Shown: positions 31,887 to 52,822, counted from the first letter of the stretch. The stretch is 64,000 nucleotides of DNA from Planctomycetota bacterium (GCA_028823345.1 JAPKBR010000003.1:62001-126000); one strand, 5' to 3'. Numbers and translations are program-made. The notes: generated by a model not told the origin, from the letters alone.

Positions 31887-32375
31887 ATGCTCAAACTCAC
31901 AAAGCGCACTGAATACGGGCTGATTGCCCTAACCCACCTGGCTCAAATGCCCGGTGAGGTCGTGCCCGCTCGTGAGATTGGAGACAGCTTCCCCATCCCC
32001 CGCCGTCTCTTGGCTGAGGTGCTCAAGGACCTTTGTCGCGTCAACCTGATCGACTCGACCCGCGGAGCCCATGGGGGCTATGCCCTCTCGCGTTCGGCGA
32101 AGGAAATATCCCTGGCAGAAATTGTCAGTGCCCTAGAGGGCGCCCCCACCGTGAGCGGTTGCGGCGATGGAGATCTCTTGGCCGGCGAAACCCCCTGCGA
32201 GGTGCGACCGATTTGTCCAATCCGCTCCCCCCTTGAACGCATCAGGGAAAGGATCTGGCAGATCATGCTGACCACTAGCCTGGCCACTCTAGCACAGCCC
32301 AACGAACCCCCTGTTTCCATAGTCAATCACCTGCAGACCAATCACAATCTGCAAGCCAACGAACAACAATCATGA
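31887..32375 (+). CDS. iscR: Rrf2-family transcriptional regulator (IscR-like)
   Basis: [66 protein letters not shown]; Cys cluster [20 protein letters not shown]; immediately upstream of iscS. Confidence 0.88.
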
Positions 32376-33586
32376 ACACCCCCGTCTACCTCGACTTCCA
32401 AGCCACCACCCCCGTGGACCCGCGGGTCCTAGAGGCGATTTTGCCGTACTTCACTGAAGTCTTCGGCAACGCCGCCAGCCGCAACCACCCCTTTGGGTGG
32501 GATGCGGAAAAGGCGGTGGACAATGCGCGCGCTCAGTGCGCAGCCTTGATCGGCGCCCACGAAAAGGAAATCGTCTTCACCTCCGGCTCCACCGAAGCGA
32601 TCAACTTGGCCCTCAAGGGTGTCGCTGAGATGTACGGCTCGAAGGGCAAGCACATCATCACCAGCATGTCCGAGCACAAGGCCGTCTTGGATGTGGCCAA
32701 GCACTTGGAAAAGGAAGGTTTTGAAGTCACCTACCTCACCCCGGACAAATTGGGCCGTCACAGCGTTGAACAGATCGAAGCCGCCATGCGCGATGACACG
32801 ATTCTGGTGGCGATCATGTGGGCCAACAACGAAATTGGCACGATCCAATCCATTGCTGAAATCGGCAAACTCTGCAAAGAGCGCAAAGTGCTCTTTATGT
32901 GCGATGGCACCCAAGCTGCCGGGAAGATCCCCGTCAACGTGGACGAAGCCGGCGTGGACTTGATGTGCGCCTCGGGGCACAAGATGTACGGACCTAAGGG
33001 CGTAGGCTTCCTCTACGTGCGCCGCAAGAATCCGCGGGTGCGCCTGGTGGCCCAAATGGACGGTGGCGGTCACGAGCGCGGCATGCGTTCGGGCACCTTG
33101 AACGTCCCGGGAATTGTGGGCCTTGGGGCTGCGGCCGATGTTGCGCTCAAGGACCTAGAGAAGGACGCTAAGCACTCGCTTCAGTTGCGTGAACGCTTCG
33201 AAGCGCGCGTCTTCAAAGCCCTCGATCAGGTCTTCATCAACGGCGACAAAGACAACCGCCTGCCCGGTTGCTCGAACCTTTCGTTTGCCTACGTGGAGGG
33301 CGAGAGCCTGATCATGGGCATTCCTGAATTGGCGGTTTCCTCAGGCTCCGCCTGCACCTCCGCCAGCCTCGAACCTAGCCACGTGCTGCAAAGCATGGGC
33401 GTGGGTGACGAATTGGCCCACTCCTCAATCCGCTTCGGTTTCGGCCGCTTGACCACGGAAGAGGAAACGGATTACGCCGCCGACCAAATCATCCGCGCAG
33501 TGATCAAGCTGCGCGAACTTTCACCCCTTTACGAGATGGCCCTAGAGGGCATCGATTTAAGTCAAGTTAACTGGACGGGCCACTAG
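32372..33586 (+). CDS. iscS: Cysteine desulfurase IscS
   Basis: [21 protein letters not shown]..., [61 protein letters not shown] overlap with iscR. Confidence 0.97.
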
Positions 33587-33606
33587 GCCCTATTGGAAAT
33601 CAAATT

Positions 33607-33996
33607 ATGGCATACAGCGACAAGGTCCTCGACCACTACAACAACCCGCGCAACGTGGGCTCATTGGATAAAACCAGCAAAGCCGTGGGCACCGGCATCG
33701 TCGGCGCTCCCGAGTGCGGCGATGTGATGAAGCTTCAAATCGAAGTGGACGGCGATCGCATTGTGGATGCGAAGTTCAAAACGTTCGGTTGCGGATCGGC
33801 AATCGCCTCTTCGTCCCTAGCCACCGAGTGGCTGCGGGGCAAAACCCTGCAAGAGGCCACCGCCATCACCAACACGGAAATCGTGCAAGAGCTCAGCCTG
33901 CCCCCGGTCAAGATCCACTGTTCGGTGCTAGCCGAGGATGCGATCAAGGCTGCGGTTTCGGACTTCAAGCGCAAGCACGAAGGGGAGGACGCCTGA
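33607..33996 (+). CDS. iscU: Fe-S scaffold IscU
   Basis: MAYSDKVLDHYNNPRNVGSLDK...GAPECGDVMKLQIEV...KTFGCGSAIASSSLATEWLRGKT...LPPVKIHCSVLAEDAIKAAV. Confidence 0.97.
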   Translation: MAYSDKVLDHYNNPRNVGSLDKTSKAVGTGIVGAPECGDVMKLQIEVDGDRIVDAKFKTFGCGSAIASSSLATEWLRGKTLQEATAITNTEIVQELSLPPVKIHCSVLAEDAIKAAVSDFKRKHEGEDA

Positions 33997-33997
33997 T

Positions 33998-34327
33998 ATG
34001 GCTATCTCCCTTTCAGAACGCGCCGTCAAGGAAGTCGAGCGAATCGTTACCGATCAGTCTCTGCCCGAAGAAACCGGCCTGCGGGTTGGAGTCAAGGGCG
34101 GCGGTTGTTCTGGATTTTCCTACACCCTGGGCTTTGACGATCAAAAACGCGCCACGGACCAGATCTCGGTATTCGCCGGAGTGCGCATCCTCTGCGATCC
34201 GAAATCGTTCCTGTACCTGAACGGCACCATGATCGACTTTGAAGAGAGCCTGATGGGCCGCGGCTTCAAATTCACCAACCCCAACGCCAGCAAGAGCTGC
34301 GGCTGTGGCGAAAGTTTCAGCGTCTAG
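33998..34327 (+). CDS. iscA: A-type Fe-S carrier IscA
   Basis: LRVGVKGGGCSGFSYTLGFDDQ...LNGTMIDFEESLMGRGFKFTNPNASKSCGCGESFSV. Confidence 0.95.
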   Translation: MAISLSERAVKEVERIVTDQSLPEETGLRVGVKGGGCSGFSYTLGFDDQKRATDQISVFAGVRILCDPKSFLYLNGTMIDFEESLMGRGFKFTNPNASKSCGCGESFSV

Positions 34328-34340
34328 AACCATTCTTCCC

Positions 34341-34997
34341 GTGGACACCGGCCTCCACTCCTGCCCCCACTGTGACGCCGAGCTGTGGAGCCCCCTCGCT
34401 TGTGAAGAGTGCGGGGCGCTGCTCGAATCCAGTGACCATGGCACGCCCTTTGTAGTCTTTGGCCTCGAGCGCGCTTGGGACATCGACCGCAAGGATCTGC
34501 GGCGACGGCTCTTGCGCCTGCAACGCCTGGTGCACCCGGACCACGCCGGGGCTACGGACCAGGCCCAGGAGGCAGCGGCCACCTTGAATCACGCCCACGA
34601 GGTCTTGGCGGATCCGTCCCTACGAGCAAACCTATTGCTGCGCTTGCTCGGCGGCCCGGACGAATCCACCGAACGCAAGATGCCCCAGGATTTCCTCATG
34701 GAAGTTCTCGAATGGAACGAAACCCTGGATGAAATTACCGAGGACCAGGGTTCCGAGCCGGCCTCGCGAGAAGCGCGCCTGATCCACCTGCAAGACGAGT
34801 TGCTCCAACGCAGGGAAGACCTACTGGTCGAAGTGGGCGCCGCACTCATGCCGCTCCCCGAACCCAAGTCCGAATCCCTCGCCCTTCTGCGCCGCCGCCT
34901 GAATGCCGCGCGCTACCTCGCTCGTACACTTTGGCGCATCCGCGAAATGCGCCTCACCGAACAGGGCCTTTCCGGCGCCACGAAACCTCCCCTTTGA
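34341..34997 (+). CDS. hscB: Co-chaperone HscB (J-domain) with N-terminal zinc-ribbon
   Basis: CPHCDAELWSPLACEECGALLE followed by FVVFGLERAWDIDRKDLRRRLLRLQRLVHPDHAG...LNHAHEVLADPSLRANLLLRLLG...MPQDFLMEVLEWNE. HPD motif present. Alternative start at 34305. Confidence 0.9.
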   Translation: MDTGLHSCPHCDAELWSPLACEECGALLESSDHGTPFVVFGLERAWDIDRKDLRRRLLRLQRLVHPDHAGATDQAQEAAATLNHAHEVLADPSLRANLLLRLLGGPDESTERKMPQDFLMEVLEWNETLDEITEDQGSEPASREARLIHLQDELLQRREDLLVEVGAALMPLPEPKSESLALLRRRLNAARYLARTLWRIREMRLTEQGLSGATKPPL

Positions 34998-35033
34998 TCT
35001 CCCCCCACCACCCCCCAACCAAAAAACAACACC

Positions 35034-36899
35034 GTGGGTTACATTGAACTCGACGTCGTAAACAACGACGCGCCGCGCGTGGTAATAGGCATTGACCTTG
35101 GAACCACCAATTCCCTCGCCGCCATCTGGGAAGACACAGGGCCACGCGTCCTGACTCCCGACGGTATGAGCGCTTCAATTCCAAGCGTGGTGCATGTGCC
35201 CGCGGAAGGCAACCCGGTGGTGGGAACAGACGCAAAGGCCCAGGCCATGGTCGATCCCGAGCACACGGTTTTCTCCGTCAAGCGCATGATGGGGCGCGGA
35301 GTCGAGGACCTCGACTTGGCCAACAATCCCCTGCCCTATAAGGTGCTGGAGGATGACAGAAAGCTCGCCATGGTCGAGCTGCACGGAAAGCGCATGACGC
35401 CCCAAGAGCTCTCCGCTTGGATCTTGGTGGGAGTCCTTGAACACGCTCGCAAGGCCACGGGATCCGAAGTGGCCGCCGCGGTGATCACCGTCCCCGCTTA
35501 CTTTGATGACGCACAACGCCAAGCCACCCGGGACGCGGCTCGCATCGCTGGCTTGGAAGTCCTGCGCATCGTCAACGAGCCCACCGCCGCCAGCCTGGCC
35601 TATGGGTTAGGCCGAACCGACGCCCAAACCGTCGCGGTCTTTGACCTGGGCGGCGGGACCTTTGATGTTTCCCTGCTTTCCATCGAGGAGGGCGTGTTCC
35701 AAGTGCTGGCCACCAACGGCGACACTCGCCTCGGGGGTGACGACTTTGACCAAGCCCTGGTGCAACTGGCCCGTGAAGATCTGGCGAACGATGTTTCCCC
35801 TGAACTCTTCAACGACCCGGCCTTCCTGCAAGCTGCGCGCCTGTCCGCAGAAAAGTGCAAGCAAGCCCTGAGTTCCGATCCCGAAGCCGAGTTGCACTTG
35901 GCCCTGCCGGACCTGAACATCAACTACCGCCGGCGCATCACGCGCCCGGAATTCGAAGCCCTCATCGAACCCCTGGTGCAGCGCACCCTCCAGTCCTGCC
36001 GCCGCGCCCTCAGCGATGCGGAACTCACCACCGACCAAATCGACGAAGTGGTGCTTGTGGGCGGATCCACCCGCGTGCCCCTCGTGCGCGCCCAAGTGGA
36101 AGCCTTCTTCGGTCGCGCCCCCCACACCGCCCTGAACCCCGACCACGTGGTGGCCCTCGGCGCAGCGGTCCAAGCGCATGTGCTCACTGGCGGCACGCGA
36201 GACGTTCTACTGATGGATGTCACGCCCCTTTCCCTCGGCATCGAGACCATGGGAGGCGCTGTGTCTAAGATGATCGAGCGCAACTCGACCATCCCCTGCA
36301 GCCACAAGGAAGGTTTCTCCACCTACGCCGAAGGCCAAACGGGCATCGACTTCCACGTGATCCAAGGCGAGCGCGAACTAGCCGCCGACTGCCGCTCCCT
36401 CGGACGCTTCAGTCTCAAGGACATCCCCCCCATGCCCGCTGGTATGGCCCGAGTCGGCGTGCGCTTTGCCCTCGATGCCGACGGCGTGCTCACGGTCAGC
36501 GCCAAGGAGGAATCCACCGGCGCCAGTGCCTCCATCGAAATCGCACCCATGCACGGCCTAACCGACAACGAAGTCGAAACCATGCTGGACGCGGGATTCG
36601 CAAATGCCCAAGAGGACTTCGACAACCGTCGCGTCGTCGACCTGCAAACCGAGATCGGCACCATGCTGACCGCCATCGACCGCAGCAACGAAGCCGCTCA
36701 AACGGGCCTCGACCGAGAGTCGCTTCTCGACCTCACCGAAGCAGTCGAAGCTGCGAAGAAAGCCCAGACCACCCACGACCTGCCCCAAATCCAGTCCGCC
36801 CGCGACCGGCTTGAGCAGGCATCCCTACCCCTGGCCACGATTTTAATGGACGGAGTAGTGAAGGGTGCAATTACGGGGAAGAGAGTGGACGAGCTATGA
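35034..36899 (+). CDS. hscA: Fe-S assembly Hsp70 chaperone HscA
   Basis: VVIGIDLGTTNSLAAIW..., VITVPAYFDDAQRQATRDAARIAGLEVLRIVNEPTAASLAYGLG, VFDLGGGTFDVSLL, LVGGSTRVPLVRAQVEAFFG; directly follows hscB. Confidence 0.95.
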   Translation: MGYIELDVVNNDAPRVVIGIDLGTTNSLAAIWEDTGPRVLTPDGMSASIPSVVHVPAEGNPVVGTDAKAQAMVDPEHTVFSVKRMMGRGVEDLDLANNPLPYKVLEDDRKLAMVELHGKRMTPQELSAWILVGVLEHARKATGSEVAAAVITVPAYFDDAQRQATRDAARIAGLEVLRIVNEPTAASLAYGLGRTDAQTVAVFDLGGGTFDVSLLSIEEGVFQVLATNGDTRLGGDDFDQALVQLAREDLANDVSPELFNDPAFLQAARLSAEKCKQALSSDPEAELHLALPDLNINYRRRITRPEFEALIEPLVQRTLQSCRRALSDAELTTDQIDEVVLVGGSTRVPLVRAQVEAFFGRAPHTALNPDHVVALGAAVQAHVLTGGTRDVLLMDVTPLSLGIETMGGAVSKMIERNSTIPCSHKEGFSTYAEGQTGIDFHVIQGERELAADCRSLGRFSLKDIPPMPAGMARVGVRFALDADGVLTVSAKEESTGASASIEIAPMHGLTDNEVETMLDAGFANAQEDFDNRRVVDLQTEIGTMLTAIDRSNEAAQTGLDRESLLDLTEAVEAAKKAQTTHDLPQIQSARDRLEQASLPLATILMDGVVKGAITGKRVDEL

Positions 36900-37698: not shown

Positions 37699-39048
37699 AT
37701 GTCAACCAACACGGAACTCAAACGAGAGCTCGGGCCGGTGATGCTCTGGGGCCTCGGCGTGGGCTATGTCATTTCAGGGATGTACTTTGGCTGGAACCTG
37801 GGATTGCCGGAGGCGGGGCCCTATGGGATGTTGCTCGCCACGGTCATGGTCACGATCATGTATGTGACCTTTACGCTGAGTTACTCGGAGTTGGCCTGCG
37901 CCATTCCCAAGGCCGGGGGCGTGTTTGTCTATGCGGATCGGGCCCTGGGTCCGAAGTTGGGTTTCTTAGGGGGCGTAGCGCAAATTGTTGAGTTTGTTTT
38001 TGCACCGCCAGCAATTGCGGCGGCCATCGGCGCCTACTTGAACATCAAGTTTCCTGATGTGGACACCTGGATGTTTGCTGTGGGTGCCTATGTGCTGTTC
38101 ACCAGCCTTAACATCTGGGGCGTCAAGCTCTCAGCGATCTTCGAACTGGTCGTGACCGTGCTGGCGGTCATCGAGCTTTTGATCTTCGCGGGGGTCACAG
38201 CCCCGCACTTCACGTTTGAAGCCTTCAGCAAGAACCCCTTGCCCAATGGTTGGGGCGGCGCGTTTGCAGCGATCCCTTTTGCAATCTGGTTTTACCTCGC
38301 CATCGAAGGCCTGGCCAACGTGGCCGAAGAGACCCACAACCCCCAGCGCAACATCAGCATCGGGTTTGGCTCTGCCATTGGAACCCTGGTGATGCTGGCT
38401 TTCTTAACCTTCTTTTGTTCGGTGGGAGTCAACGGGTGGGAGACAGTGGTCTTTGAACCGGGGTCCAGCGAGCCATCGGACTCGCCCTTGCCCCTAGCCA
38501 TGGCGCACCTCTTAGGCCGAGAATCGTTTCTGTTCACGCTCTTGATCAACGTAGGGCTACTTGGGCTGATTGCCTCGTTCCACGGCATCATTCTGGTAGC
38601 GGGCCGGGCGACTTTTGAGTTTGGCCGAGTGGGCTATGCGCCGAAGTTCCTTGGGCGGACACACCCCACCCGCAAAACTCCCGCGGCGGCCTTGATCTTG
38701 AACATGCTGGTGGGCTTTGGAGCCCTAATGAGCGGCCGTACGGGGGACATCATCACCATGGCGGTGTTTGGCGCCTTGACCCTCTACTTGGTCTCCATGC
38801 TGTCGCTTTTCGCCCTGCGCCGAAAAGAACCGGATTTGGATAGGCCCTATCGCGCACCTTTCTATCCCGTGATCCCGGGAGTGGCCCTGGTCCTTTCCCT
38901 CGTGAGCCTCGTGGCTCTGACTTACCACAACCACCAAATCGCCCTGTTGTACGGCGCGATCTTGACCTTAGCCTTTGGCTGGTTCTTCTTGGTAGTACCC
39001 AAGGAACGCCGCCAGGGTCTGCACACCCTTGGAGACAACGACAAGTGA
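37699..39048 (+). CDS. APC-superfamily permease, ethanolamine-permease-like
   Basis: LKRELGPVMLWGLGVGYVISGMYFGWNLGLPEAGPYGMLLATVMVTIMYVTFTLSYSELACAIPKAGGVFVYADRALGPKLGFLGGVAQIVEFVFAPPAIAAAIGAYL resembles ethanolamine permeases. Confidence 0.82.
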   Translation: MSTNTELKRELGPVMLWGLGVGYVISGMYFGWNLGLPEAGPYGMLLATVMVTIMYVTFTLSYSELACAIPKAGGVFVYADRALGPKLGFLGGVAQIVEFVFAPPAIAAAIGAYLNIKFPDVDTWMFAVGAYVLFTSLNIWGVKLSAIFELVVTVLAVIELLIFAGVTAPHFTFEAFSKNPLPNGWGGAFAAIPFAIWFYLAIEGLANVAEETHNPQRNISIGFGSAIGTLVMLAFLTFFCSVGVNGWETVVFEPGSSEPSDSPLPLAMAHLLGRESFLFTLLINVGLLGLIASFHGIILVAGRATFEFGRVGYAPKFLGRTHPTRKTPAAALILNMLVGFGALMSGRTGDIITMAVFGALTLYLVSMLSLFALRRKEPDLDRPYRAPFYPVIPGVALVLSLVSLVALTYHNHQIALLYGAILTLAFGWFFLVVPKERRQGLHTLGDNDK

Positions 39049-40421
39049 GTAACCCCATCGCAACCACCGAAGAGATCATCGAAGAGGTGACCTCCAGTTC
39101 CTCCCCCTTCGTCAAGCTGGCCGTGTGCGACATCGACGGTGTCCTACGGGGCAAGTATGTGCACAAGGACAAGTTCCTTTCGGTGCTCAAGGAGGGCCTT
39201 GGGTTCTGCGATGTGATCTTTGGATGGGACATGGGGGATCAGTGCTATGACCATGTTCCATTCACCGGCTGGCATACGGGCTATCCCGATGCACAGGCGC
39301 GCCTCGACCCCAAGAGCTTCCGGAAAATTCCCTGGGAAAACGAAGTGCCCTTTTTCCTGGGTGACTTTTCCAAGGAGGACAACCCCGCCGGAGCCCCTCC
39401 CTGCCCGCGCACGCTTCTGAAGAAAGTCATCGCCCAGGCGAGCGACATGAACCTGCTACCAGCTTTCTCCATGGAGTTTGAGTGGTTCAACTTCTTCGAG
39501 ACCGCCGAGAGCCTGGAGGAAAAGGGCTTTGTGCGTCCCCAGCCCATCACCCCCGGAATGCACGGGTACTCCATGCTGCGCACGAGCCAGAACTCTGAGT
39601 TCTTTGCCACCCTGCACGGGGCCCTGGAGGACTTTGACGTGCCCATCGAGGGCCTGCACACGGAAACGGGCCCCGGAGTCTTGGAAGCGGCGCTCATTTA
39701 CAGCGACGTCCTGGAAGCAGCCGATCGGGCGGTGCTTTTCAAGTGGGGCGCCAAGTCCATCGCCCACGACTTTGGAATGATGGCCAGCTTTATGGCCAAG
39801 TGGAACAGCGAGCTGCCCGGTTGCAGCGGGCACATTCACCAGAGTCTCTGGAGCGCAGACGGAAAAACCAACCTGTTCTTCGATGGGAATGGGCCGGACA
39901 ACATGAGCGACACCTTCCGCCACTATCTTGCGGGGCAAATGCACTGCCTGCCAGAAATCCTGCCGCTCCTAGCACCCAACATCAACAGCTACAAACGGCT
40001 AGTAGAAGGGCACTGGGCCCCCACCACAGTCACCTGGGGCATCAACAATCGCACGGCGGCTTTGCGGGTGATCAGCGGCGGTGAAAAGTCCACGCGCCTG
40101 GAAAACCGCGTTGTGGGATCCGACGCGAACCCCTACCTCGCTATGGCCGCTTCCCTGGCCAGTGGGCTCTATGGCATCCGGCACAAGCTGGAGCCGGTGC
40201 GGGACAAGGTGATCGGCAACGCGTACGAGGACACCGGCGCCGTTCGTCTGCCCAACACGCTCTCCGCAGCCACCGAGCGCATGGCAGAATCCGCCATCGC
40301 CAAAGAACTATTCGACGAAGCCTTCATCGAACACTTTGTGGCCACCCGACGCTGGGAGTGCAAGCAGCACCAGGCTGCGGTCACCGACTGGGAAACCCAG
40401 CGTTACTTTGAAATCGTCTAG
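39045..40421 (+). CDS. Glutamine-synthetase-family gamma-glutamyl-amine ligase (PuuA/IpuC/GlnA4-like)
   Basis: FSMEFEWFNF, LHTETGPGVLEAAL, GCSGHIHQSLW, NNRTAALRVI...TRLENRVVGSDANPYLAMAASLASGLYGI; N-terminal beta-grasp differs from GlnA-I. Confidence 0.85.
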   Translation: MSNPIATTEEIIEEVTSSSSPFVKLAVCDIDGVLRGKYVHKDKFLSVLKEGLGFCDVIFGWDMGDQCYDHVPFTGWHTGYPDAQARLDPKSFRKIPWENEVPFFLGDFSKEDNPAGAPPCPRTLLKKVIAQASDMNLLPAFSMEFEWFNFFETAESLEEKGFVRPQPITPGMHGYSMLRTSQNSEFFATLHGALEDFDVPIEGLHTETGPGVLEAALIYSDVLEAADRAVLFKWGAKSIAHDFGMMASFMAKWNSELPGCSGHIHQSLWSADGKTNLFFDGNGPDNMSDTFRHYLAGQMHCLPEILPLLAPNINSYKRLVEGHWAPTTVTWGINNRTAALRVISGGEKSTRLENRVVGSDANPYLAMAASLASGLYGIRHKLEPVRDKVIGNAYEDTGAVRLPNTLSAATERMAESAIAKELFDEAFIEHFVATRRWECKQHQAAVTDWETQRYFEIV

Positions 40422-40430
40422 CATCTGGCC

Positions 40431-41603
40431 ATGACTCCCGTCACTCAGTTCAATTACCCGACCCAGGTGCGCTTCGGCCCCGGATCCATGGGCGAAGTTC
40501 CAGAGCACCTGACCGCCCTGGGGATCCAACGCCCTCTTCTGGTCACCGACAAGATCGTCGCCGAATTGCCCCCTGGACAAAAGCTGGCAAGCTGTCTGGA
40601 AAACTTGCCCTTGGACAGCGCTGTGTTCTCCGGTATCTGGGGCAACCCGGTGATCAGTCAAGTGCAAGCGGGAGTGGCCGCGTTCAAAGAACACAAAGCC
40701 GACGGCATCGTGGCCCTCGGCGGCGGCGCGTCCATGGATGTGGCCAAGATCATTGCGCTCATGGCCCATCACCCGGGTTCCGTGTTGGACTACGAGGACG
40801 GGAATCCCAATCAAAAGCCAATTCAAAACCCGATCCCGCCGATCATCGCGATTCCAACCACCGCAGGCACGGGCAGCGAAGTGGGCCGGGCCGCAGTGGT
40901 TTCGGAAGACGGCTCCCATCGCAAAGCGATTCTGTTTCATCCGCGTCTCTTGCCCGCGGTGGTGTTGCTCGATCCGGAACTGACCGTGGGTTTGCCCGCA
41001 AAGGTCACTGCCGCCACGGGCATGGATGCCTTGAGCCACCTGGGAGAAGCATTCTTGGTCGACAGCTTTCACCCCATGGCGGATGGAGTTTCCCTGGAGG
41101 GCCTGGGTTTGATTTCCAAGAGCCTTTTGGATTGTGTCGATTTCGCGAATGCTGGCACGGGAGCCACGCCCGAACACATCGACGCCCGGGGCTTGATGCT
41201 GACTGCTTCCATGATGGGCGCCGTGGCCTTTCAAAAAGGTTTGGGTGTGACCCATTCCTGCGCCCATGCCCTCTCGACGGTTTGCGATTTGCACCACGGA
41301 CTGGCCAACGGGATCATGTTGCCCTTCACCTTCGGCTTCAACCGCAGTGCCTGCGAAGATAAGTTCAAGCGCATGAGCATCGCGGTGGGAGCAGATGGAA
41401 GCGCGGATGGCTTTTTCCGCTGGTTGGACGGGCTGCGAGCGCAGATTGGCATTCCCGCAAGCCTGAGGTTGGCCGGTGTTGGACCGGAGCACCTCGACGA
41501 CTTGATTGCCTTTGCACTCAAAGATTCTTGCCACTTGGAAAACCCAGTGCCGGTTTCTGAAGCTGATTTCCGTGCCCTCTTTCAGTCCGCGCTTCAGGCA
41601 TGA
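40431..41603 (+). CDS. Iron-containing (group III) alcohol dehydrogenase
   Basis: GGGASMDVAKIIALMAHHPG, IPTTAGTGSEVGRAAVV, TGMDALSHLGEAFL, HSCAHALSTVCDLHHGLANGIMLPFTFGFN. Confidence 0.92.
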   Translation: MTPVTQFNYPTQVRFGPGSMGEVPEHLTALGIQRPLLVTDKIVAELPPGQKLASCLENLPLDSAVFSGIWGNPVISQVQAGVAAFKEHKADGIVALGGGASMDVAKIIALMAHHPGSVLDYEDGNPNQKPIQNPIPPIIAIPTTAGTGSEVGRAAVVSEDGSHRKAILFHPRLLPAVVLLDPELTVGLPAKVTAATGMDALSHLGEAFLVDSFHPMADGVSLEGLGLISKSLLDCVDFANAGTGATPEHIDARGLMLTASMMGAVAFQKGLGVTHSCAHALSTVCDLHHGLANGIMLPFTFGFNRSACEDKFKRMSIAVGADGSADGFFRWLDGLRAQIGIPASLRLAGVGPEHLDDLIAFALKDSCHLENPVPVSEADFRALFQSALQA

Positions 41604-42364
41604 CTCCCCGTCCCCTCAAAATCGGCCTCGGCGCGTGCTTTTTCCACGCGGATCCCGCGCGCCCCATTTTCAAAGGCAAGACCCTGCAATACATGGAGCA
41701 GTCCATGGCTCATTGGGTGATGGCCTCCGGGGCAGTGCCCTTGATGTTGCCCCGGCCCAGCGGCCTGGTCGATGTGCGAATGCTGGTGGAGGAAATCGAC
41801 GGCTTACTGCTACAGGGTGGCTCGGATGTTTCCCCAAAAACCTATGGCATGCAAGCGCACAAACCCGAGTGGGCCGGAGACCGAGAGCGTGACCTCTATG
41901 AGATCGAGCTGCTCAACGAATGCTTGCGGGTGGGGAAACCTGTCCTGGGTATTTGCCGCGGCCTGCAATTGATCAATGTCGCCTTCGGCGGGACTCTCTA
42001 TCAGGATTTGGAAACCCAGTGCCCCGAATCCCAAGTCCATCGGGATTGGAATGTGTACGAGGATCTGCATCACGAGGTAGTGTTTGAGCCTGGCTCACGC
42101 CTGCACGAGTTCTATCCGGGGAAATCCGGCGGGCGCGTGAACAGCATTCATCATCAAGCCGTCATGGATCTTGCCGAAGGGCTGGTGATTGAAGCCCGTT
42201 CCGTGGACGACGGGATTGTTGAAGCCCTGCACCGTCCCGGACCCAGCTACCTCTACGCGCTGCAATGGCATCCCGAGTTCATTTCTGCGGAAGCTGCGGA
42301 GCTCCTGTCTCCAAATCCAATCATGCGCAGTTTCCTTTCCGCTGCTGAAGAAGCCCGCGCCTAA
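41600..42364 (+). CDS. Gamma-glutamyl-amine hydrolase (peptidase C26, PuuD-like)
   Basis: GLLLQGGSDVSPKTYG, PVLGICRGLQLINVAFGGTLYQDL, VNSIHHQAVMDLAEGLVIEARS, LYALQWHPEF. Confidence 0.92.
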   Translation: MTPRPLKIGLGACFFHADPARPIFKGKTLQYMEQSMAHWVMASGAVPLMLPRPSGLVDVRMLVEEIDGLLLQGGSDVSPKTYGMQAHKPEWAGDRERDLYEIELLNECLRVGKPVLGICRGLQLINVAFGGTLYQDLETQCPESQVHRDWNVYEDLHHEVVFEPGSRLHEFYPGKSGGRVNSIHHQAVMDLAEGLVIEARSVDDGIVEALHRPGPSYLYALQWHPEFISAEAAELLSPNPIMRSFLSAAEEARA

Positions 42365-42369
42365 AATCC

Positions 42370-43743
42370 ATGCTGCAAGTCATCAACCCAGCCACCGGCG
42401 GTGCGCTCTGTGAGCTAAGAACCGACTCCCCCGAAATGGTGAGCGACAAGTACCAACAAGCACGCCTGGCCCAACCCGCCTGGGCCGCTCTTGAGGTCCA
42501 AGAACGCTGCGCTTTTATACGCCGCTTCCAGCAACAACTGATCGAGCGCCAGGAAGAACTCGCAGGCCTTTTGACCTCGGAAACGGGCAAGCCCCTGCAG
42601 CAGTCCCTCAACGAACTGAATGGCGTCCAGGGTCGCATCGATTTCTTCCTGAAGAGCACCGCGGACACCATTCAGGCCCTCGATATGCTGCCGTCGGGCA
42701 ACAATCCCGCCGAGCGCCTGACCTTTGAACCCCTGGGAGTGATCGCAAACATCTCCGCCTGGAATTACCCCTACCTTGTGGGTGCCAATGTCTTCATCCC
42801 GGCGCTCCTGACCGGTAATACGGTGCTTTACAAGCCGTCGGAATTCGCCTCCCTCACAGGCAAGGCGATCTTCGACATGTTCACCTCGAGCGGTCTACCG
42901 GAGGGTGTCTTGAGCGTCATCATTGGTGAAGGCGAGGTGGGTGCACACCTGCTCCAACAGCCCATCGATGGGGTCTACTTCACCGGGTCTCATGCCACTG
43001 GCGTCAAGATCGCCGCGGGCGCCGCCCCAAATTTGATGCGCGTCCAACTGGAACTGGGAGGCAAAGACCCGGTCTATGTGATGGAGGACGCTCCAGTTGC
43101 CGCCGCCGCAACCGCCCTTGCGGACGGAGCCTTCTACAACGCAGGCCAAAGCTGCTGCGCAGTGGAGCGAATCTATGTGCGCAACGAGATCATGGACGAG
43201 TTCGTAAAGCACTTTGTTATCGCCGCACAAAAACTCGTTGTTGGATCCCCCACCGATCCCACCACCACCCTCGGGCCCCTGACCCGTGCCGCGCAACTCG
43301 ACGTGCTGGACGCCCAGGTGGCGGATGCTCTGCAAAAGGGCGCCCAGCTCAAGGTCGGCGGGCAAAGGCTCCCTGGTCCCGGGTCGTTCTATCAGCCAAC
43401 CGTCATGACCCAGGTCAACCACACCATGGACCTGATGACCGAAGAGAGTTTTGGCCCCATCATCGGCATCCAAGGTGTGTCTTCTGACAGCGAAGCACTA
43501 GAGCTGATGAACGACAGCCCCTATGGCCTGACCGCGGCGGTTTTTTCTCCCGACCAACAACGGGCCCAAGGCATCCTGGCCCGCGTCAACTCCGGCACCG
43601 TCTACTGGAATTGCTGCGACCGGGTCAGTCCGCACCTGCCCTGGACCGGCCGGGGGAACTCAGGCATCGGCAGCACGCTCTCGACCCTTGGGATTCAGGC
43701 GTTTGTGCAGCCAAAGAGCTGGCACATGAACGCGGGCCAATAG
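42370..43743 (+). CDS. NAD(P)-dependent aldehyde dehydrogenase
   Basis: ISAWNYPYLVGANVFIPALLTGNTVLYKPSEFAS, LELGGKDPVYVM, GAFYNAGQSCCAVERIYV. Confidence 0.95.
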   Translation: MLQVINPATGGALCELRTDSPEMVSDKYQQARLAQPAWAALEVQERCAFIRRFQQQLIERQEELAGLLTSETGKPLQQSLNELNGVQGRIDFFLKSTADTIQALDMLPSGNNPAERLTFEPLGVIANISAWNYPYLVGANVFIPALLTGNTVLYKPSEFASLTGKAIFDMFTSSGLPEGVLSVIIGEGEVGAHLLQQPIDGVYFTGSHATGVKIAAGAAPNLMRVQLELGGKDPVYVMEDAPVAAAATALADGAFYNAGQSCCAVERIYVRNEIMDEFVKHFVIAAQKLVVGSPTDPTTTLGPLTRAAQLDVLDAQVADALQKGAQLKVGGQRLPGPGSFYQPTVMTQVNHTMDLMTEESFGPIIGIQGVSSDSEALELMNDSPYGLTAAVFSPDQQRAQGILARVNSGTVYWNCCDRVSPHLPWTGRGNSGIGSTLSTLGIQAFVQPKSWHMNAGQ

Positions 43744-46411: not shown

Positions 46412-47899
46412 GTGAAGGTCGCCTTCGCAACTCCCGAATTCCAGAGCTTGGTGCGCCGCACCAACCTCGCCGAGATCGCTGAACAACTCCCCCGCGCCCT
46501 GATGGCTGCGGGTGCGAATGTCCGTGTCTTTTTGCCTCTGACCAAGGACATCGACACCTCGATTCTCACCGGGCTCAAGAACGCGGGCAGCCTGACTCTC
46601 CCGGATGGGGACGAAACCGTGCGCGTGCGAGTGATGCGCGGCCAGCTCAACGGCTTGGAGCTCTGCCTGATCGATCATGCCCAGCTCTTCCGCACGCGGC
46701 ACCCCTACGGAGATGCCCAGGGCCCCTATAGCGACAACTGGCGCCGGTTCGCGATTTTCGCACGGGCCGTTCTGGAAGGCCTTGAACTCATCCGCTTCTC
46801 CGCAGATGTGATCCACTGTTTTGATTGGACCACGGGTTTGATTCCGGTCATTCAAAAACTCGAGTACCAAAACCGCGTTGAGAAACACCCTGCCTCCAAG
46901 GCTGGCACTTTCTTCGCCGTGCAAAACACCGCTATGCAAGGCAGTTTTGAGCGCGAGATCTTGCCAAAGATCGGAATCCCCCACTCAGAATTCCACGCCA
47001 TTGGCGGAGTCGAGTTGGGAGGCAAGATCAACTACCTGAAGGCAGGGGCAGAGTACGCCACAATCATCGGCACCAACTCCCCCACAATGGTGGGGTCAGT
47101 AACCTCCTTGCCCAACGACAGCACGGTCTACGACACCTTTAGGCGTCGAGAAAAAGAGATCGTTGGCATTACGCCCGGCATCAACTATCGCTCTTGGGAC
47201 CCGAGCTGCGACCCCCTGCTGGCCCAGGTCTTCGGTCCCGATGACAAGGATCCCACCGCAGGCAAGCGCAGGTGCAAAGTCACCTTGCAAAAAGCCCTCA
47301 AACTAGACAACGGTCCCCGGACGCCCCTGATCTGCGTGATCGGCCAGTTCGACAGCGATGGCGGTTTCGACATTGTCTCTGAGGCGCTCACTCCCCTGCT
47401 GGAGCGGTCCGTGCAAGTGGTCATGATGGGCCCGGGAAGTCCCGAGGTTCTTGAGCGCCTGCACACCATCGAGCAAACATTCGCCGGCCGTTGCCGAATC
47501 ATCGAGGGCTACAACGTCAACACTGCCCATGTGTTGCTTGGTGGGTCCGACATCTTGCTGTTACCGTCCCACTTCCACGCTGCGCCAACCTTGCCCGCAA
47601 TTGGCATGCGCTACGGCGTGGTCCCAGTCACTTTTGCGAACGGCGGACTCGCAGATGTGGTTCGGGATGTGCGCGATCATCCGCTTAATGGCACTGGATT
47701 TTCATTCAAGAGCTACGACGCTGACTCTATGCTCGAGGATGGCATCGATGCTGCGCGGCAGCACTACAAGAACACCCCTGACTGGAAACAAGTGGTTCTG
47801 CGCTGCCTGGGCGAAGACAACTCTTGGGCTGCTGCAGCCGATCAACAGCTCAAGGCCTACCGCCGCGTTCGTCGGCGTACTCCCCCGAGGAGGAGCTAG
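46412..47899 (+). CDS. GlgA-like glycosyltransferase (divergent glycogen/starch synthase homologue)
   Basis: MKVAFATPEFQSLVRRTNLAEIAEQLPRALMAAGANVRVFLP, VIHCFDWTTGLIPVI, INYLKAGAEYATIIGTNSPTM, GITPGINYRSWDPSCD, LPSHFHAAPTLPAIGMRYGVVPVTFANGGLADVV; collinear with GlgA. Confidence 0.78.
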   Translation: MKVAFATPEFQSLVRRTNLAEIAEQLPRALMAAGANVRVFLPLTKDIDTSILTGLKNAGSLTLPDGDETVRVRVMRGQLNGLELCLIDHAQLFRTRHPYGDAQGPYSDNWRRFAIFARAVLEGLELIRFSADVIHCFDWTTGLIPVIQKLEYQNRVEKHPASKAGTFFAVQNTAMQGSFEREILPKIGIPHSEFHAIGGVELGGKINYLKAGAEYATIIGTNSPTMVGSVTSLPNDSTVYDTFRRREKEIVGITPGINYRSWDPSCDPLLAQVFGPDDKDPTAGKRRCKVTLQKALKLDNGPRTPLICVIGQFDSDGGFDIVSEALTPLLERSVQVVMMGPGSPEVLERLHTIEQTFAGRCRIIEGYNVNTAHVLLGGSDILLLPSHFHAAPTLPAIGMRYGVVPVTFANGGLADVVRDVRDHPLNGTGFSFKSYDADSMLEDGIDAARQHYKNTPDWKQVVLRCLGEDNSWAAAADQQLKAYRRVRRRTPPRRS

Positions 47900-47905
47900 C
47901 TGCTA

Positions 47906-48817
47906 ATGTCGCCGACCGGTCGTTTCCTAGGTCTCGACATCGGTGGAACCTCGGTCAAGGCCGGCATGGTCGGGCCCGGGGAAAAACGAGTGGGTGCATC
48001 TATGCCCCTGCCCACCCAAATCCAGGACGGGCCAGAAGTCTTTCTTGACCGGCTTTGCGACTACGCTCGCTCTTTCGGTCCCTTTGACGCGGTAGGCGTA
48101 GGCTGCCCCGGGGTATTTGATCCAGGTACGGGTGCCCTGCGCGCTTCGGCCAACCTCCAAAATCTCGAGGGGCGCATCTTGGGCCAAGAAATTGCGCAAC
48201 GGCTCAACCTATCCGAGAACCAAGTGCGCGTGGACAACGACGCGAACCTTGCCGCCTATGGGGAACAGTGGCACGGTGCCGGAGCAGGTCGTGACAACAT
48301 GTGCCTGCTCACCCTGGGCACCGGGATCGGCGGCGGACTGATCCAAGACGGTCGGCTCTTCACCGGCCCCCACGGTATGGCAAGCGAGGTGGGCCACATC
48401 GTGATTCTGCCCAAGGAACAGGGAGGGCATCCCTGCGGCTGCGGCAGTGCCGGCTGCCTGGAAACCCTGGCCTCTGCCACCCACGTGAGACGCCGCGCGC
48501 GGGAAGCGGGCCTGACCGAGGATACGGTGGAACTCTGCCGCCGTGCCGAGGCGGCGGCGGGACCCGAACGGGAATTGCTGCACCAGGTTGGCCGCGACTT
48601 GGGACGGGGCATGTCCTATGTAGTTTCGCTCTTAGACATCACCTTCTTCGTGATCGCAGGGGGCTTCAGCGCGGCCTTGCCCCAGATGATCGAAGGGATC
48701 CACGAAACACTTTCTGAGCGGCGCTATGGCACGCCCAAGCCTGATGTGGTTCGTGCGACCCTGGGCCCTGATGCTGGCTGGATGGGGGCCGCTCGCCTAG
48801 CGGGGGACGCCCGGTGA
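47906..48817 (+). CDS. ROK-family sugar kinase (glucokinase-like)
   Basis: FLGLDIGGTSVKAGMV, VDNDANLAAYGEQWHGAG, TLGTGIGGGLIQDGRLFTGPHGMASEVGHIVI, CGCGSAGCLETLASA. Confidence 0.93.
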   Translation: MSPTGRFLGLDIGGTSVKAGMVGPGEKRVGASMPLPTQIQDGPEVFLDRLCDYARSFGPFDAVGVGCPGVFDPGTGALRASANLQNLEGRILGQEIAQRLNLSENQVRVDNDANLAAYGEQWHGAGAGRDNMCLLTLGTGIGGGLIQDGRLFTGPHGMASEVGHIVILPKEQGGHPCGCGSAGCLETLASATHVRRRAREAGLTEDTVELCRRAEAAAGPERELLHQVGRDLGRGMSYVVSLLDITFFVIAGGFSAALPQMIEGIHETLSERRYGTPKPDVVRATLGPDAGWMGAARLAGDAR

Positions 48818-50259
48818 CCAAGAACTGGATCGACGAACTGCGCACAATAGTCGGGCCCCGCAATGTAATCACCGGCTCTGAATCCCTTGCTTGGGAATCC
48901 GACGGATTGTCATTGGTGCGCGGAATGGGCCAAGCCATCGTCTTGCCGTTGGATACGGAAGAAACCGTCCTGGTCATGAAACTATTGGCACGAGAGGGAG
49001 TCCCGGTGGTGCCAAGAGGCGCTGGCACTGGCCTCACCGGCGGAGCCACACCAGTCGAAGGAGGCGTGACCGTGGGAACCGCGCGCATGCGCGAGATCTT
49101 TTCCATTGATCCAGTCGGACGATTGGCGCATGTGCAGGCGGGAGTAGTGAACTCGGATCTCAGCGTGGCTGCCCGGCCCCATGGTCTGTTCTATGCCCCG
49201 GACCCTTCGAGTCAAGCGGCTTGCACCTTGGGAGGCAACGTGGCAAACAACTCGGGCGGGCCCCACTGCTTCATGCACGGATCCACCACCCGCCACGTGC
49301 GCGGAGTCAAGTTGGTGGATGCCCAGGGCCAAGTGCTCGACCTCTTGGCCAGCCCGGCGGATCCCGAAGGCCTCGATCTGGTCGGTCTGATCACCGGTAG
49401 CGAAGGCATGTTCGGGATGGTCACCGAAGTGCAGCTGAACCTCGAGCCTCTTCCCGAGGAGGTCCAGACCATCATTGCGGTTTTCCCCAGCTTGGATGCG
49501 GCCTGCGACTGCGTTTCCGAAGCAATCGCCGCCCACATCGAAGCATCAGCCATCGAGATCCTCGACAAGCTCACCATCGCTGCGGTGGAGGACAGCATTT
49601 TTGCTGCGGGCTATCCCCGGGAGGCAGAAGCGCTCTTGCTCGTGGAAGCGGAAGGGGGTGCCTTGGAAGTGCAAGAGACCATCGACTTGGTTTTGCAACT
49701 GGCGAAGAAACACGGGGCCATGGAAATCCGCAGCGCTCAAGACAAGGCTGAACGCGCACGGCTTTGGGCCGGCCGCAAGGGAGCCTTCGGGGCCATGGGG
49801 CGCGTGGCGCCGGACCTCTATGTTGCCGACGTGGTCGCGCCTCGCACGCGCTTGCGGGAAATCGTCGCCCTTGCGATCAAGATCGCCGAGGAACGCAACC
49901 TGCGCTTGGGCAACGTTTTCCATGCAGGGGATGGCAACCTGCACCCGAATATCGCCTACGACCGGCGAGACGAGGACGAGGTCCGTCGCGTACTGGAAGC
50001 GGGACAGCTGATCATGGAGGCCTGCATCGAACGGGGCGGATCCTTGACCGGCGAACACGGGGTGGGGGTCGAAAAGATGACCCACATGTGCGACCTATTC
50101 GACGACGACGACCTGAACACCATGCACCGGGTACGGGATGCACTTGATCCCAAACGCCGCATGAACCCAACCAAGGTTCTGCCCCTGCGCGCCTGCCGCG
50201 AAGTACGCAACGGCGGATTGCCCTTTTCACCCATGGGGAATCTGGGGGCCAAGACATGA
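48814..50259 (+). CDS. glcD: Glycolate oxidase subunit GlcD (FAD-linked oxidase)
   Basis: VPVVPRGAGTGLTGGATPVEGGVTVGTARM, CTLGGNVANNSGGPHCFMHGSTTRHVRGVKLVD, GNVFHAGDGNLHPNIAYDRRD, EHGVGVEK. Confidence 0.93.
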   Translation: MTKNWIDELRTIVGPRNVITGSESLAWESDGLSLVRGMGQAIVLPLDTEETVLVMKLLAREGVPVVPRGAGTGLTGGATPVEGGVTVGTARMREIFSIDPVGRLAHVQAGVVNSDLSVAARPHGLFYAPDPSSQAACTLGGNVANNSGGPHCFMHGSTTRHVRGVKLVDAQGQVLDLLASPADPEGLDLVGLITGSEGMFGMVTEVQLNLEPLPEEVQTIIAVFPSLDAACDCVSEAIAAHIEASAIEILDKLTIAAVEDSIFAAGYPREAEALLLVEAEGGALEVQETIDLVLQLAKKHGAMEIRSAQDKAERARLWAGRKGAFGAMGRVAPDLYVADVVAPRTRLREIVALAIKIAEERNLRLGNVFHAGDGNLHPNIAYDRRDEDEVRRVLEAGQLIMEACIERGGSLTGEHGVGVEKMTHMCDLFDDDDLNTMHRVRDALDPKRRMNPTKVLPLRACREVRNGGLPFSPMGNLGAKT

Positions 50260-51500
50260 GCCAGACCAATGCTTCAGACCGCGCGCACCTCTTGGGCCAG
50301 GGCTCGGGATGCGCCCTGGGAGAAGTGCGTGAATTGACTTGTCTCGCACCCAAGGACCACGGCCAACTGGCGGAGGTCCTGGGGGAAGCCCGTCGCAGGA
50401 GTTTCTCCGTGCTGCCCATCGGCGCAGGAAGTCAATTGGCCTGGTGTCGTCCCGATGCCATCGATGACCCGGCCAACGCCCCCATCCCGATCAGCCTCAT
50501 GCACATGGCCGGGGTGCTAGAGCAGATCCCTGGCGAAGGCACGGTCACCGCCCAGGCTGGCACTCCTTGGTGCGACCTAGCCCAAGCCGTTGAGCAATCA
50601 GGCGAATGCCTCCCGGCGGACTTGGCCGGAGCAACCACGTCCACCCTGGGGGGCATTTTGGCAGCGGGACGCTCGGGCCCCAACCGATTGCGCCATGGCC
50701 CCCTGCGCCATCATGTGCTGGGCATGCAGGTCATGCTGTCTGACGGCACCCTGGCCAAGAGCGGTGGACGATTGGTCAAGAACGTCACCGGGTTCGATCT
50801 TCATCGCTTGTACACGGGTTCCCGCGGCACCCTGGCCATCATTCTTGAAGCCAGCTTGCGGCTCAAGGCCCTCCCCGAACGGGAATGGAGTTTTTCCATG
50901 CCCGTGGCAGACTGCGCCAGCGGATTTACCAAGGCCTTAGAAATCCAACAGGCCATGCCACGCCTGCACTGGTTGGTGCTGACGCGCACCCAGTCCGGAG
51001 TGCGCCTGCAAGGTGGACTCGCGGGGCGTGCAAGCCAAGTGAGGTCGGATCAGGAGAGGGTCCTAAGGGCCCTTGGGGGCACACCCGAATCCTTTGATGG
51101 CCAAGCACCCACCGAGCGCAAACGCCTCGGGGAAGAGGGGGCAGAGAATCGCCACGCCTGGGAAATCGGCAGTCCACTCACCCACTGCGCCGAACTCCTA
51201 GGCATCCTCGAAGCCCAACTGCCCACCGAGACAAAGCTGTGGGTGGATTGCGGTGCAGGTCGTATTTTGGTGGGTCCGGCGGGAGACGCGACCGTCACGG
51301 AAAAGCCCTCTTGGGCGGAAACCATCGGTGCAGAGGCCACATCCCTGCGCCCTCTCTGTGTCCACCGCCACTTGCACGCCCAGTGGACAGGGTCCAATCC
51401 AAGCCCCACTCAAACGAATTGGCAACAACGCTTGACGTGCGGACTCGATCCGGCCGGCATCTTCTCCATGACCCTTGATCCCGGGAAGGCACCCGCATGA
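50256..51500 (+). CDS. glcE: Glycolate oxidase subunit GlcE
   Basis: FAD_binding_4-type half: FSVLPIGAGSQLAW..., ATTSTLGGILAAGRSGPNRLRHGPLRHHVLGMQVMLSDGTLAKSGGRLVKNVTGFDLHRLYTGSRGTLAIILEASLRLK; overlaps glcD and glcF by 4 bp. Confidence 0.9.
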   Translation: MSQTNASDRAHLLGQGSGCALGEVRELTCLAPKDHGQLAEVLGEARRRSFSVLPIGAGSQLAWCRPDAIDDPANAPIPISLMHMAGVLEQIPGEGTVTAQAGTPWCDLAQAVEQSGECLPADLAGATTSTLGGILAAGRSGPNRLRHGPLRHHVLGMQVMLSDGTLAKSGGRLVKNVTGFDLHRLYTGSRGTLAIILEASLRLKALPEREWSFSMPVADCASGFTKALEIQQAMPRLHWLVLTRTQSGVRLQGGLAGRASQVRSDQERVLRALGGTPESFDGQAPTERKRLGEEGAENRHAWEIGSPLTHCAELLGILEAQLPTETKLWVDCGAGRILVGPAGDATVTEKPSWAETIGAEATSLRPLCVHRHLHAQWTGSNPSPTQTNWQQRLTCGLDPAGIFSMTLDPGKAPA

Positions 51501-52822
51501 GCAGCGCGATCCGCTCCTTGCCCCTGGACTACGACCTGACCCTGGACTGCATCCACTGCGGTTTGTGTCTGAACTCCTGTCCTACCTATCGCCAAAGCGG
51601 CCGGGAATCAGAGGGCCCCCGCGGCAGAATACATCTGATGCGCGCCCTGGCCGAAGGACGCCTAGAGGCCGATCAGGATTGCGTGGAAGCCCTTGACTCG
51701 TGCCTAGTCTGCCGCAATTGCGAAACCGTTTGCCCCGCCGGAGTGCAGTTCGGCGCCCTGATGGAAAGCGCCCGGGACCATCTGCCTGCGCCGGGTCTTC
51801 TCGCACGGGGCCTGCGTTGGTTTGGGTTCCGCTTGGTCCTTCCCCACCGCCGGGTGCTTGGGTTCTTGGCAGGAGCCGTGCGCCTGACGCAACTCCTGCG
51901 ACTGCCCCAGGCCATAGCACCGCTCTTGGGTCAGCGTGGAATTGCTCTGGCCCATCTGCCGGTTTTCCCGGAAGCGAACAAGCGTCGTAATCTGCCCCCC
52001 ATATGCCCCAGCACGAGCGAACGCACGGAAGCCGTGGGCATGCTGGAAGGTTGCGTGCAGAGGCAACTGTACGGGGATGTCAACCGCGCAACCGTCGCAG
52101 TCCTCAATGCTTGCGGTGCCGATGTGCACACGCCACAAGACCACGCATGTTGCGGGGCACTGCACGCGCACAACGGGGACTTGGACGAAGCCCGACGCTT
52201 GGCCCAAAAAACCATCCAAGCATTCGAGGACATGGGCGGCGAACCGGACATGCGGATTGTGTTGAACTCGGCCGGTTGTGGAGCCCACATGGCCGAGTAC
52301 CCAAGGCTCTTCGCTGAGGATCCCCTATGGCTCCCGCGGGCGGATGCCTTTGCGCAACGGGTGATCGATTTCTCCGCCTTTGTGGCCCAAGCCGAACGGG
52401 CTGAGCGACTCAAGAAACAACTCGCACCCCTAGCCCCACGCAAGGTTGCCTGGGACGATCCCTGCCATCTTTGTCACGGCCAAGGAATCACCGCCGAGCC
52501 TCGGGCCCTGTTGGATTTAATTCCTGGAATCGAGCGGGTGGAGATGCCGGGCGCTGGATCCTGCTGCGGGTCAGCGGGCATCCATGCCCTCTTGTATCCA
52601 GCGGAATCCAACCAGTTACTCGACGCCAAACTAGAGGAGTTCACTAGCTCTGAAGCCGATGTATTGATCACCGCGAATCCCGGGTGCCAGATGCAGTGGC
52701 ATGGGGGTTTCTCAAGAACAGGAAAGGCTACCCGGCCCCAACACTTAGCCGAAATCCTCGCCGCATCCTTGGCTCAAGGACCCCAGGTGGTTTCGAAGGC
52801 TAAGCCTCCGAAGAAGGGATAG
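51497..52822 (+). CDS. glcF: Glycolate oxidase iron-sulfur subunit GlcF
   Basis: CIHCGLCLNSCPTYR and CLVCRNCETVCPAG 4Fe-4S motifs; CCG domains ACCGALHAHNGD, SCCGSAGIHALLYP. Confidence 0.94.
   Translation: MSSAIRSLPLDYDLTLDCIHCGLCLNSCPTYRQSGRESEGPRGRIHLMRALAEGRLEADQDCVEALDSCLVCRNCETVCPAGVQFGALMESARDHLPAPGLLARGLRWFGFRLVLPHRRVLGFLAGAVRLTQLLRLPQAIAPLLGQRGIALAHLPVFPEANKRRNLPPICPSTSERTEAVGMLEGCVQRQLYGDVNRATVAVLNACGADVHTPQDHACCGALHAHNGDLDEARRLAQKTIQAFEDMGGEPDMRIVLNSAGCGAHMAEYPRLFAEDPLWLPRADAFAQRVIDFSAFVAQAERAERLKKQLAPLAPRKVAWDDPCHLCHGQGITAEPRALLDLIPGIERVEMPGAGSCCGSAGIHALLYPAESNQLLDAKLEEFTSSEADVLITANPGCQMQWHGGFSRTGKATRPQHLAEILAASLAQGPQVVSKAKPPKKG

Follow-up and report, generated by a model that had tools for sequence, protein, structure and literature searches.

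The window, that is, the whole stretch of 64,000 nucleotides analyzed here, carries five ORFs on the + strand at positions 37699-43743. Their coordinates and strand were confirmed, and the gene junctions are -4, +9, -4 and +5 bp in order, in agreement with the 4-bp overlaps and 5-9 bp gaps described in an earlier note on this DNA. The first gene (37699..39048, +) encodes an APC permease of the ethanolamine (Eat) family. The second (39045..40421, +), which begins with a GTG start codon and overlaps the permease stop by 4 bp, encodes a GS-like gamma-glutamyl amine ligase that is probably ethanolamine-specific. These are followed by genes for an Fe-ADH (40431..41603, +), probably a gamma-glutamylethanolamide dehydrogenase; a peptidase C26/PuuD-like gamma-glutamyl hydrolase (41600..42364, +), probably acting on gamma-Glu-Gly; and an ALDH (42370..43743, +), probably a gamma-glutamyl-aminoacetaldehyde dehydrogenase. 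The five family assignments in that note were borne out by matches to TIGR00908, PF00120, PF00465, PF07722 and PF00171.

A gene for a DCC1-like thiol-disulfide oxidoreductase lies upstream of the five genes and a large opposite-strand ORF, by eye a phosphoglycerate mutase, lies downstream. Thus, the operon is bounded at 37699-43743.

Other gene groups were seen elsewhere in the window. Upstream, positions 31887-36899 (+) encode an Rrf2 regulator and then, by eye, IscS, IscU, IscA, HscB and HscA, which reads as an isc-type Fe-S operon. At 46412-48817 (+), a starch/glycogen synthase-like GT5 protein gene is followed after a 6 bp gap by a ROK kinase gene, and three overlapping genes at 48814-52822 (+) with FAD-oxidase, FAD-binding and Fer4/CCG domains resemble glycolate oxidase GlcDEF. 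On the - strand, the region 15065-19224 contains a gene for a 742 aa protein with a weak AglB_L1 match, which adjoins a sulfatase/DUF3413 protein gene; AT skew is unusually high (0.27) at 16-18 kb.

Permease and ligase

The permease scored 456.8 bits against the ethanolamine permease model TIGR00908, the cutoff of which is 381.75 bits. Its closest relatives on plasmids share 46-48% identity with it, and EutB and EutC are encoded alongside them in all three of the neighborhoods inspected (Azospirillum, Moraxella and Pararhizobium). The score and the EutBC-adjacent relatives together are the strongest indicator in the sequence that the substrate may be ethanolamine. Further, eat adjoins a gene for a GS-like ligase in Thermomicrobium, Photobacterium GJ3 and Arthrobacter.

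The ligase matched PF00120 (Gln-synt_C) with 323 bits. It scored 212 bits against the GlnA model (cutoff 429) and 201 bits against the gamma-glutamylputrescine synthetase (PuuA) model NF045547 (cutoff 650), and it was below the cutoff of TIGR03105 (type III ligase) as well. When aligned to E. coli GlnA, the ligase retained the metal, glutamate and ATP residues, and Glu327 of the ammonium site was replaced by Trp. The same Glu327 of GSI is lost in Streptomyces GlnA4 (Phe) and PauA7 (Trp) (Krysenko et al., PMC6529630). A separate GSIII, which can make glutamine, is encoded elsewhere in the genome.

For comparison, we used the S. meliloti (L030) and P. denitrificans (L161) loci, which are examples of the TRAP-type ethanolamine operon by layout. 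The window ligase is 34-35% identical to the ligases of these two species, and in a tree of 41 rows its clade was apart from the S. meliloti-type ligase. A joint clade of the window and S. meliloti ligases was rejected (delta lnL 247, p-AU 4e-44). The identity and the rejected clade rule out that the window ligase is an orthologue of the TRAP-type (eto) ligase, and a single origin of the ethanolamine-cluster ligases is likewise rejected for the window clade and the S. meliloti ligase. PDB 5dm3 (entry title 'L-glutamine synthetase'), which we take to be the C. salexigens ligase, matched the S. meliloti ligase with 675 bits and the window ligase with 229 bits. Because the window ligase lies outside the S. 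meliloti/C. salexigens-type clade, its substrate is not readable from orthology.

The ligase is approximately 40% identical to IpuC, which formed its own clade in the tree. On the curated cutoffs, the residue table and the trees, the ligase was rejected as a true GS, PuuA or IpuC. Its nearer plasmid relatives (46-49% identical) have aminotransferases, a GMC oxidase or polyamine-type ABC transporters as neighbors; such varied catabolic contexts indicate that substrate shifts are common. A ligase 77% identical to that of the window was found in 'Planctomycetota bacterium bin32s' (L031), which places the window's host among the planctomycetes.

Dehydrogenases and hydrolase

The Fe-ADH matched PF00465 (162 bits) and PF25137, and its catalytic residues D199, H203, H275 and H289 are intact by motif position. 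It passed no equivalog cutoff; its best model, below cutoff, was 4-hydroxybutyrate dehydrogenase, which was also the best model of the Fe-ADH in the S. meliloti ethanolamine-type operon. Its best plasmid homologues (44%) belong to the NFGA-TRAP-GS-ALDH-FeADH operon of Paracoccus denitrificans, and its identity to the Fe-ADHs of TRAP-type ethanolamine operons is 41-46%. In a tree with eight other Fe-ADHs, those of the ethanolamine operons, including that of the window, formed one clade (100/99). When a closer control from outside such clusters (a Pseudosulfitobacter Fe-ADH) was added, it fell inside this group, which rules out an exclusive clade. The Fe-ADH lineage is therefore not exclusive to ethanolamine operons.

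The hydrolase matched PF07722 (Peptidase_C26) with 193 bits, and C119, H224 and E226 are intact by motif position. PuuD (6vtv) and Lin1909 (3fij) were among its PDB matches, and its family is that of PuuD, not N-formylglutamate amidohydrolase. The ALDH matched PF00171 with 427 bits, with C262 and E228 intact by motif position, and in the search of curated models it passed no NCBIfam equivalog cutoff.

Conservation of the gene order

We scanned 85,488 species genomes for the ligase and scored the gene order in the best 80 ligase loci. The order eat-GS-FeADH-C26-ALDH, on the same strand, was present in 39 of these 80 loci, or in 35 of the 61 that had enough flanking sequence. The five-gene arrangement is therefore far beyond chance, and the order, for which the earlier note had suggested a search of genomes, does recur, mostly in Bacteroidota. 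The 39 loci comprise 35 from Bacteroidota, single loci labeled Planctomycetota, Bdellovibrionota and Pseudomonadota, and one without assignment; three (L038, L064 and L067) have insertions between cassette genes. Eight further loci of the best 80 contain the last four genes without eat. The cassette permeases of Cyclobacterium (434 bits) and of locus L048 (424 bits) pass the TIGR00908 cutoff, as does that of the window.

Within the genus of the window, the permease, ligase, ADH and hydrolase occur together in five of seven genomes, including the window's own; the two without a match (G003 and G006) are incomplete (77-79%). Among 297 sampled Planctomycetota genomes, a close ligase was found in only eight, which suggests patchy inheritance or transfer of the ligase in this phylum.

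In 12 of the best 80 loci, the ligase is part of a different cluster. This alternative cluster (L071, L075, L081, L083, L084, L085, L090, L094, L101, L103 and L108; for example, L084:7289-12441), found in Mucilaginibacter, Fodinibius and others, has the same ligase subfamily without eat, ADH, C26 or ALDH, and ethanolamine catabolism is therefore not the sole role of this subfamily. The neighbors are a protein of approximately 347-372 aa without a Pfam match, a HAD phosphatase and often a GS-fold protein of approximately 336 aa. By eye, the 347-372 aa protein has a kinase-like DWNIGNF...RWDYDW motif, and its predicted model is poor (pLDDT 51). The cluster is perhaps a gamma-glutamyl biosynthetic set.

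Proposed pathway and alternatives

Ethanolamine is a breakdown product of membrane lipids. The operon probably specifies a gamma-glutamylation route for ethanolamine that ends in glycine, judging from the sequence and its relatives. The substrate and intermediates in the following scheme, like the direction of the reactions and the physiological role, are inferred. The Eat permease would bring in ethanolamine, which the GS-like ligase would join to glutamate at the expense of ATP, yielding gamma-glutamylethanolamide. The Fe-ADH would then oxidize the hydroxyl of this compound to the gamma-glutamyl aldehyde, the ALDH would convert the aldehyde to gamma-glutamylglycine, and the C26 hydrolase would release glycine and regenerate glutamate. 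Glycine may then enter glycine cleavage or serine synthesis; GcvP, which can use glycine, is encoded in the genome. The operon would thus serve as a scavenging route for nitrogen and carbon.

This series of reactions had been proposed in the earlier note, and the permease family, the loss of Glu327, the kinship of the Fe-ADH to those of ethanolamine operons and the gene order are consistent with it. The note had further proposed that no EutBC lyase takes part. In agreement with this, EutB had no match in any of the seven genus genomes (77-91% complete), and only E. coli was positive among 14 controls.

It is unlikely that the enzymes act in the same way on a different amino alcohol, turning 3-aminopropanol into beta-alanine, alaninol into alanine or 4-aminobutanol into GABA, and that the permease carries that compound. 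Such a reading would accord with the ease with which GS-like ligases change substrate, with the different catabolic contexts of neighboring ligase clades and with the 4-hydroxybutyrate dehydrogenase model, below cutoff, as the best for the Fe-ADH. However, the S. meliloti operon Fe-ADH shares that model, and the permease score and the plasmid relatives beside EutBC favor ethanolamine.

A Puu- or Ipu-type pathway for polyamines or alkylamines appears very improbable. Although a C26 hydrolase and a GS-like ligase are common to Puu, and the ligase resembles IpuC in sequence, the operon contains no PuuB oxidase, PuuE or P450. Further, the ligase scored far below the PuuA cutoff, IpuC is in a clade of its own and the permease is of the ethanolamine type. 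That the ligase is an ordinary glutamine synthetase, placed by chance in an alcohol-oxidizing operon, is scarcely credible: it has the Gln-synt_C domain with all catalytic residues, but its GlnA score is half the cutoff, Glu327 is replaced by Trp and the genome has a GSIII.

Comparison with known systems

The earlier note, which had cited the GlnA4 step only, implied that the pathway was novel. This claim is not supported in view of previous reports (PMC6529630, PMC9397018, PMC10132767). A four-step route in C. salexigens and A. tumefaciens is attributed to Vetting et al., as cited in PMC10132767. In Phaeobacter, the route is supported by proteomics, and the operon is induced by phosphorylethanolamine (Westermann et al., PMC10132767). 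In S. coelicolor, the full route was deduced; GlnA4 was assayed and the later steps were inferred (PMC6529630). Since the full route is known elsewhere, the window operon is a variant of it, with the same predicted reactions and with a ligase from another clade, a different hydrolase family, a different transporter and a different gene order.

The TRAP-type operon (C. salexigens/Agrobacterium/Phaeobacter MED193) likewise combines a GS-like ligase, ALDH, Fe-ADH and gamma-Glu-Gly hydrolase, and the Paracoccus operon has the layout of that of Phaeobacter (PMC10132767). In contrast to the window, however, its hydrolase is an N-formylglutamate amidohydrolase rather than a C26 enzyme, its transporter is TRAP EtoVWX, or a different permease in the case of S. 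meliloti, rather than APC Eat, and its order is GS-ALDH-FeADH rather than GS-FeADH-C26-ALDH. An RpiR regulator is also present in Phaeobacter and S. meliloti.

The Streptomyces glnA4 cluster has the same deduced route to glycine and, in some species, includes genes for an ethanolamine permease and a glutamine amidotransferase (PMC6529630), whereas its second enzyme is a short-chain dehydrogenase instead of an Fe-ADH. Actinobacterial ligases beside eat (L115 and L116) are in another clade than that of the window. The E. coli Puu pathway (L113) also proceeds through gamma-glutamyl intermediates and relies on a GS-like ligase, an ALDH and a C26 hydrolase, but it has the amine oxidase PuuB, in whose stead the window has an alcohol dehydrogenase, together with a putrescine permease and the aminotransferase PuuE. 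The short eut operon (eat-eutBC) shares the permease family with the window and differs in its B12-dependent ammonia-lyase.

In the open-access literature, we found no description of a Bacteroidota-type cassette for ethanolamine gamma-glutamylation. On balance, we lean toward the view that the route arose on two or more occasions with ligases from separate branches of the GS-like family, and that the window branch is a B12-free eat-ligase-FeADH-C26-ALDH cassette that is widespread in Bacteroidota and has passed sporadically into Planctomycetota, Bdellovibrionota and other groups. Should ethanolamine prove to be the substrate, the B12-independent and compartment-free use of this compound from membrane lipids would extend to numerous Bacteroidota of soils and waters and to some planctomycetes, and the conserved five-gene order would provide an easy genomic marker. 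GS-like ligases would then have reached one substrate from separate branches, which would help specificity prediction where orthology misleads.

Planctomycete relatives without the window operon (L006-L017) encode a different GS-like ligase. It shares 45-60% identity with the ethanolamine-type ligase of S. meliloti, and its gene is often located near one for a C26 hydrolase or ALDH.
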